DNA of 64,000 bases. It comes from an uncultured Fluviicola sp. Its GTDB lineage: Bacteria > Bacteroidota > Bacteroidia > Flavobacteriales_D > Crocinitomicaceae. This document shows, one piece after another, positions 1 to 709 of the stretch. The DNA is taken from assembly GCA_913009205.1 (NCBI GenBank), contig CAJVYC010000016.1, positions 1-64,000 on the forward strand, read 5' to 3'. The translations under genes and the position numbers were made by a program. Numbering within the stretch: the first letter of the stretch is position 1; every line of letters starts with the position of its first letter. The notes under the pieces were generated by a model that did not search any database, was not told the origin of the DNA, and was given only the letters and a program-made list of their open reading frames with translations.

Positions 1-32
1 TTCTTAATTCGCTTATCGTTATAAGCGGGGTG

Positions 33-62
33 CAAAGATAGTCACTCCTTTTATTTTAACAA
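33..62 (-). promoter_or_regulatory. Minus-strand promoter, copy 1
   Basis: On the minus strand TTG (60-62) lies 19 bases upstream of TATCTTTG (33-40). This matches the Bacteroidota vegetative consensus TTG-N17-23-TAnnTTTG. The expected start is near 26-28, at the base of the hairpin at 11-26. Confidence 0.7.
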
Positions 63-134
63 GCTTTTCTTGAAAACTTTTTAAAATTATTTTTTTCTTT
101 TCAAATCCTTTATGCTTATCGTTATAAGCGGAGG

Positions 135-164
135 CAAAGATAGACGCTCTTTTCATTTTAACAA
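135..164 (-). promoter_or_regulatory. Minus-strand promoter, copy 2
   Basis: TTG (162-164), a 19-base spacer and TATCTTTG (135-142) on the minus strand. Spacing is identical to copy 1, and the hairpin at 114-129 lies directly downstream. Confidence 0.7.
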
Positions 165-245
165 GCTTTTCTTAAACTTTATTAAAAAATAATAATTTCA
201 TCATTAAACTTTCAAATCTTGTCTGCTTATCATTCTAAGCGGGGG

Positions 246-275
246 CAAAGTTATGTAGTCTTTCTTTATCTGCAA
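246..275 (-). promoter_or_regulatory. Minus-strand promoter, copy 3
   Basis: TTG (273-275), a 19-base spacer and TAACTTTG (246-253) on the minus strand. The sequence is the most diverged of the three, but the two boxes and the spacing are kept, which suggests selection on the promoter. The imperfect hairpin 225-240 follows. Confidence 0.65.
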
Positions 276-339
276 TGACTTTTTCGAATCTTTTTTCATC
301 TATTTTATAACTCCTTAATAAATAAGATAATGCGAGCAT

Positions 340-370
340 AAAAAAAGGGCACTTCTAACGAAGAACCCTC
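340..370 (-). terminator. Rho-independent terminator after the 70-aa gene
   Basis: On the minus strand the arms AGGG..CTTC and GAAG..CCCT close around a GTTA loop, followed by a run of seven T. It begins about 20 bases after the stop codon at 391. Confidence 0.75.
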
Positions 371-390
371 TATTTAATAAGATTTAAAGT

Positions 391-603
391 CTATTTTTTC
401 TTATTCTTCACTTTATCAAGCCACTTATCACTCTTCATTTCTCCGAGTACTGTAACTTGTTTCATTCTTGAATAGTCTTCTGCAGCCATTAACATTTGTT
501 CTTTAGTGTCACGTCTAATCATGATACCTCCACTTCCTTGGTTTTTTACTTCAATATAAAAACCATCCTTCAATCTCGCCGGCTTAGTTGCTGGTCTTCC
601 CAT
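391..603 (-). CDS. Small basic conserved hypothetical protein (70 aa)
   Basis: A 70-residue protein rich in Lys and Arg, with no signal peptide or membrane segment. The N-terminus reads MGRPATKPARLKDGFYIEV; the middle holds a Gly-rich turn followed by MIRRDTKEQ, and the tail is strongly Lys-rich. From memory, similar short proteins occur widely in Bacteroidota without assigned function; the charge could suit nucleic-acid binding, but nothing shows it. The unit looks complete, with a promoter at 636-664 and a terminator at 340-370, so it is probably a monocistronic real gene. Confidence 0.8.
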   Translation of the reverse strand: MGRPATKPARLKDGFYIEVKNQGSGGIMIRRDTKEQMLMAAEDYSRMKQVTVLGEMKSDKWLDKVKNKKK

Positions 604-635
604 ATTCTTCTATATGTGTTAATTTTGTAATCTTT

Positions 636-664
636 CTAAGATACGAAAGAAAGAAAGAATACAA
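636..664 (-). promoter_or_regulatory. Promoter of the 70-aa gene, with TTTC repeats in the spacer
   Basis: TTG (662-664), an 18-base spacer and TATCTTAG (636-643; one mismatch to TAnnTTTG) on the minus strand. The spacer is largely TTTC repeated about three and a half times, so a change in repeat number would change promoter spacing. Confidence 0.55.
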
Positions 665-709
665 AATTTATTAAACATTTTTATGAATCTAATAATTCAC
701 TCGTATCTT

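Follow-up and report, generated by a model that had tools for sequence, protein, structure and literature searches.

What do three similar promoter-like repeats at the extreme left end of the 64,000-nucleotide stretch of DNA analysed here (the window) transcribe, and why does a hairpin stand at the predicted start of each? Base 1 of the window is base 1 of contig C16, and on the minus strand of positions 10-275 lie three units, each made up of TTG-N19-TAnnTTTG, then C-rich sequence, and then, where transcription is predicted to start, a hairpin of 5-7 bp. The hairpin cores (GCTTATCGTTATAAGC / GCTTATCATTCTAAGC) occupy 11-26, 114-129, and 225-240, spaced 103 and 111 bp apart as an earlier note on this DNA had it, and each is preceded on the minus strand by TTG-N19-TAnnTTTG (62-33, 164-135, and 275-246), with the equal 19-base spacing that the note described. 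Its claim of a fixed geometry needs one correction: N19 is kept in every unit, but in unit 1 the hairpin stands one base further from the -7 box, and the three promoters, in series on one strand, are thus spaced 102 and 111 bp apart. We conclude, with a probability of about 95%, that the units are tandem primary-sigma (sigma-ABfr-type) promoters P1 to P3 of an rRNA operon lying beyond the contig end.

Promoter P1, closest to the expected 16S rRNA, spans 28..62 (minus strand), with TTG at 62-60, N19, the -7 box TATCTTTG at 40-33, and C-rich sequence at 32-27; it was recognized by pattern match and aligns with P1 of a sister array on contig C14. P2 (130..164, minus strand), identified by pattern match and alignment, has TTG at 164-162, N19, and TATCTTTG at 142-135, and P3 (241..275, minus strand), likewise recognized by pattern match, has TTG at 275-273, N19, and TAACTTTG at 253-246. 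Start sites were placed 4-5 nt after the -7 box, the offset seen in Flavobacterium johnsoniae (PMC6847099), and so are predicted at 28/27, 130/129, and 241/240 on the minus strand, in agreement with those proposed earlier. The P1 transcript would fold there into CGCUUAU AACG AUAAGCG (10..27, minus strand; -7.6 kcal/mol, z -5.1), a hairpin confined within this genome to the two arrays; the predicted P2 hairpin (114..129, minus strand) folds at -5.2 kcal/mol (z -3.9), and the P3 hairpin, GCUUA GAAUGA UAAGC (225..240, minus strand), at -5.0 kcal/mol (z -4.0). Positions 1..10 (minus strand) would hold the first part of the rRNA leader, truncated where the contig stops, judging from the C14 sequence and its 16S positions 1-51.

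The array is not a chance pattern, because 3 of the 8 matches to the strict promoter pattern with N18-20 in the 64 kb window, and 7 of the 12 matches to TTG-N19-TAnnTTTG-CNNCC in the 2.82 Mb genome, fall in the arrays; the reversed pattern has 1 match. A search of the genome for further hairpin copies, as the note had proposed, found six with at most one mismatch, all six inside the two arrays, which excludes a general dispersed repeat in this genome.

The only other array in the genome, on contig C14 at about 77069-77480, has four units and is 81-84% identical to the array in the window. In the alignment, window P1 and P2 match C14 P1 and P2, and window P3 matches the outermost C14 unit, leaving C14 with one extra unit. 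That extra unit (L004:5231-5265) has lost the GCTTAT hairpin, and another possible stem, ACCCCT/AGGGGT, folds no better than shuffles. C14 continues through a leader with the boxA-like sequence AAGTTCTTTGAGAT into 16S rRNA, RF00177 positions 1-51, where the contig ends; 16S was the only credible match of the C14 stretch to Rfam, shortened by the contig end and hence below the cut-off, and a whole-genome 16S search of the assembly gave no scored match, the short C14 stub lying beneath its reach. Full rrn operons frequently fail to assemble in genomes of this type, and the rrn repeat accounts for the position of the arrays at contig ends. Since the sister array's contig runs into the 5′ end of 16S, the highly expressed gene that the note had suspected to the left would be an unassembled rRNA operon; from the C14 array-to-16S spacing we infer that the window stops inside the leader of another rrn operon, whose 16S is expected about 145 bases left of base 1.

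Relatives add to the support for such a gene, as like arrays precede 16S across the order and class. Within the genus, arrays of the same type either are cut at contig ends or reach 16S, and in one more genus array (G001:C3) 16S comes next. Counting only order and class genomes with DNA upstream of a 16S, we found one to five TAnnTTTG promoters about 100 bp apart upstream of 16S in most of those examined, usually with a TTG 18-21 bases upstream and C-rich sequence after; a few genomes in the sample have no promoters before 16S (e.g. L036, L108), and in others the sequence before 16S is too short. When 84,980 species genomes were scanned for exact copies of the genus-type hairpin, it occurred at 8 places spread over 7 stretches; 6 of these places belong to such promoter units and 2 lie within apparent coding sequence. 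CP034120.1 (L067, L073), titled Glaciecola amylolytica, which the NCBI taxonomy places among the gammaproteobacteria, has rrn promoter arrays of the Bacteroidota type, and its title looks mislabelled.

On the other side of the array, a 70-aa ORF (MGRPATKPARLKDGFYIEVKNQG...; 391-603, minus strand) reads toward the promoters and ends in a probable intrinsic terminator that separates gene from array (339..375, minus strand; -16.2 kcal/mol, z -5.7, with a T run after it); this terminator was seen by folding and was not listed by a simple terminator scan of window positions 1-700. The ORF has no match in Pfam or NCBIfam. Near-identical small proteins precede the rrn arrays of relatives L024, L028, and L032, and other arrays, including C14 of the same genome, come after a phosphofructokinase-like gene.

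The hairpin itself appears to be conserved for its pairing. Units that were distinct and carried an NAA[CT]G[AC] loop 7-18 nt downstream of the -7 box were aligned on the loop alone and the five flanking pairs scored: pairs were standard in 71.7% of cells, compared with 42.4% when partners were shuffled, and the covariation score was 0.649 versus 0.195 shuffled, a value reached by none of 500 shuffles. Relatedness inflates such covariation counts, but control structures slid by 1-3 columns carry equal relatedness and gave 0.21 or less. The arms interchange around one constant loop (GCUUA/UAAGC, AAAUC/GAUUU, CCCGC/GUGGG, AUAGC/GCUAU), and the case for the 5′ stem-loop suggested in the earlier note, read as an RNA element under conservation, is strengthened. 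When the first 26 nt were folded and compared with dinucleotide shuffles, the mean z was -2.9 for the genus, -1.7 for the remainder of the family, -1.1 for the order's other families, and -0.6 for the class sample, compared with -0.3 at 43 other promoter-like sites used as controls; part of what was sampled from the order and class shows a weak hairpin or none. Before tRNA genes the mean z was -1.2, and for tRNA leaders of 22 nt or more, sampled from tRNA genes and not through a covariance model, it was -1.5, a figure in which a few leaders serving two tRNAs are counted twice and whose sample overlaps the other. Because better-than-shuffled folding peaks in the genus, fades outward, and extends to tRNA leaders, the hairpin is, by all these computed signs, a 5′-terminal RNA hairpin of stable-RNA transcripts.

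A covariance model built from promoter and hairpin together, run on the window's own genome, scored its seven units at 61-75 bits, values that are not independent since the window's own units were in the training set, and nothing else above 27. In relatives, the matches examined outside rrn arrays (a set chosen by the covariance model and hence biased) lie mostly before tRNA genes; the remainder precede genes for ribosomal proteins S12 and S1 (by Pfam) and L34 (by sequence), and a probable ATP synthase subunit. This distribution points to the promoter-hairpin units as a putative class of growth-gene promoters. Some tRNA transcripts of the genus (tRNA-Asp; a tRNA-Thr/Tyr cluster; L192, L193, L206, L220) would begin with a similar hairpin, after which comes a GTTCTTT- or GTTCTCT-like motif. 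A broader proposal, which we regard as doubtful but possible, is that the stable-RNA transcripts of these Bacteroidota (rRNA, many tRNAs, and perhaps certain mRNAs for ribosomal proteins) carry at their 5′ end a dedicated hairpin whose loop, of the NAACGA type in Crocinitomicaceae, would be read by a protein or by RNA polymerase, marking growth genes at the RNA level once per tandem promoter.

At the locus itself, RNA polymerase may start at P1, P2, or P3, and output would be the sum of the promoters. Each transcript would open with C-rich sequence and fold immediately, over roughly +2 to +20, into a hairpin of 5-7 bp whose loop is of the NAACGA type, and those from P2 and P3 would also contain the downstream hairpins. 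The promoters of E. coli rrn operons have a G+C-rich discriminator and are under stringent control; the C-rich start may serve in a similar way to that discriminator. As for the hairpin, our tentative preference, held at slightly less than even odds, is that, as an RNA element in the leaders of stable RNAs, it could act on the elongation complex at an early stage, whether in promoter escape, anti-backtracking, or antitermination.

Other readings of the units deserve weighing. Each has its own promoter and hairpin, as would be expected of three short leader or small RNAs that are genes in their own right, an option raised in the earlier note; yet the terminator scan of window positions 1-700 was negative, folding shows one terminator and that upstream of the array, and in relatives such units are stacked head to tail before 16S. 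The idea finds no support here and we consider it very improbable: a Rfam search of the window gave no match above the gathering score, and this result, together with an array free of detected terminators, led us to discard a small RNA set. Still harder to credit is the view that the units do not act as promoters at all and are a dispersed repeat or an artefact of contig ends, a suspicion that two arrays alike and both at contig ends might raise; against it stand the confinement of the genome's hairpin copies to those arrays, the rrn repeat as an explanation of the contig ends, and the recurrence of the same anatomy, with different sequence, before 16S in distant families.

Two further explanations accept tandem rRNA promoters and concern the inverted repeat. 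The near-perfect palindromes at a fixed place beside each start site in the window could act as DNA, as an operator at +1 through which a regulator binds every rrn promoter; in relatives, however, the two arms vary in concert around a non-palindromic loop, AACGA, that is kept, always in the sense of transcription, whereas an operator would keep the letters of its arms, and G-U pairs occur among the stems. With arms conserved by pairing and not by sequence, we rejected the operator as improbable. The main rival is that the hairpin chiefly serves the precursor's own 5′ end, by folding it or by guarding it from decay or from mispairing with the pre-rRNA, with no action on RNA polymerase. It would indeed sit at the extreme 5′ end of rRNA and tRNA precursors, and stems of many sequences would do if stability alone were enough; this account leaves the conserved loop letters AACGA unexplained, and leader pieces are normally trimmed away. 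We judge it possible but on the unlikely side.

The promoter array is in itself nothing unusual, an rRNA promoter region at the edge of a contig; the hairpin at the start sites is a modest feature that appears to be undescribed. In the open literature we came across no account of hairpins of this kind at rrn promoters of Bacteroidota, which is weak evidence given that most subscription papers fell outside the scope of the search. As far as that literature shows, the control of rRNA transcription in Bacteroidota is little studied, and a start-site hairpin conserved by pairing and common to rRNA and tRNA leaders is a testable candidate for driving or protecting stable-RNA transcription.

Among known systems, the closest are the promoters of the Bacteroidota primary sigma factor, sigma-ABfr, with TTTG at -33 and TAnnTTTG at -7 (PMC7366714, PMC6847099). 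The three units in the window share the -7 TAnnTTTG and a TTG/TTTG box near -33, at a spacing of 19, and differ in the exact TTG-N19, the C-rich start, and the hairpin, which other promoter-like sites mostly lack. Like E. coli rrn P1/P2 and, reportedly, the 16S promoter of Bacteroides thetaiotaomicron, the arrays would place several strong promoters in series upstream of 16S; unlike either, the arrays here have three and four units about 100 bp apart, with a start-site hairpin for each. The B. thetaiotaomicron 16S promoter is reportedly the subject of Mastropaolo et al. 2009, which may already describe some of this arrangement.

The likeness to the boxB-boxA-boxC leader of E. coli is a small stem-loop in the leader directly after the promoter, together with boxA-like GTTCTTTGA before 16S in the window's own genome and boxA-like motifs after hairpins in other families. 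At p 0.05, a boxA motif follows the hairpin in 7% of genus units, versus 46% for other families of the order and 41% for those of the class; in L038, L040, L054, L078, L112, L113, L121, and L129, all from such families, a boxA-like GTTCTTT lies within about 20-40 nt after the upstream rrn promoters, forming promoter-hairpin-boxA units in tandem. We had considered a boxA after every hairpin, which does not hold in the genus, and a kissing interaction of loop GAAC with boxA GUUC, which was rejected because the conserved loop is AACGA and the loops UAACGA and AAACGA would not fit. In E. coli rrn operons the boxB stem-loop lies between promoter and boxA, its role has been called puzzling, and it is dispensable (PMC10250234); this dispensability, and the lack of a boxA after each genus hairpin, weaken the antitermination version of our preferred role for the hairpin. 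In the genus, in contrast to E. coli, boxA occurs once, near 16S, and the hairpin recurs at about +2 of every promoter with an NAACGA-type loop; since boxA is absent after most genus hairpins, we describe the hairpin as placed like boxB, and not as boxB.
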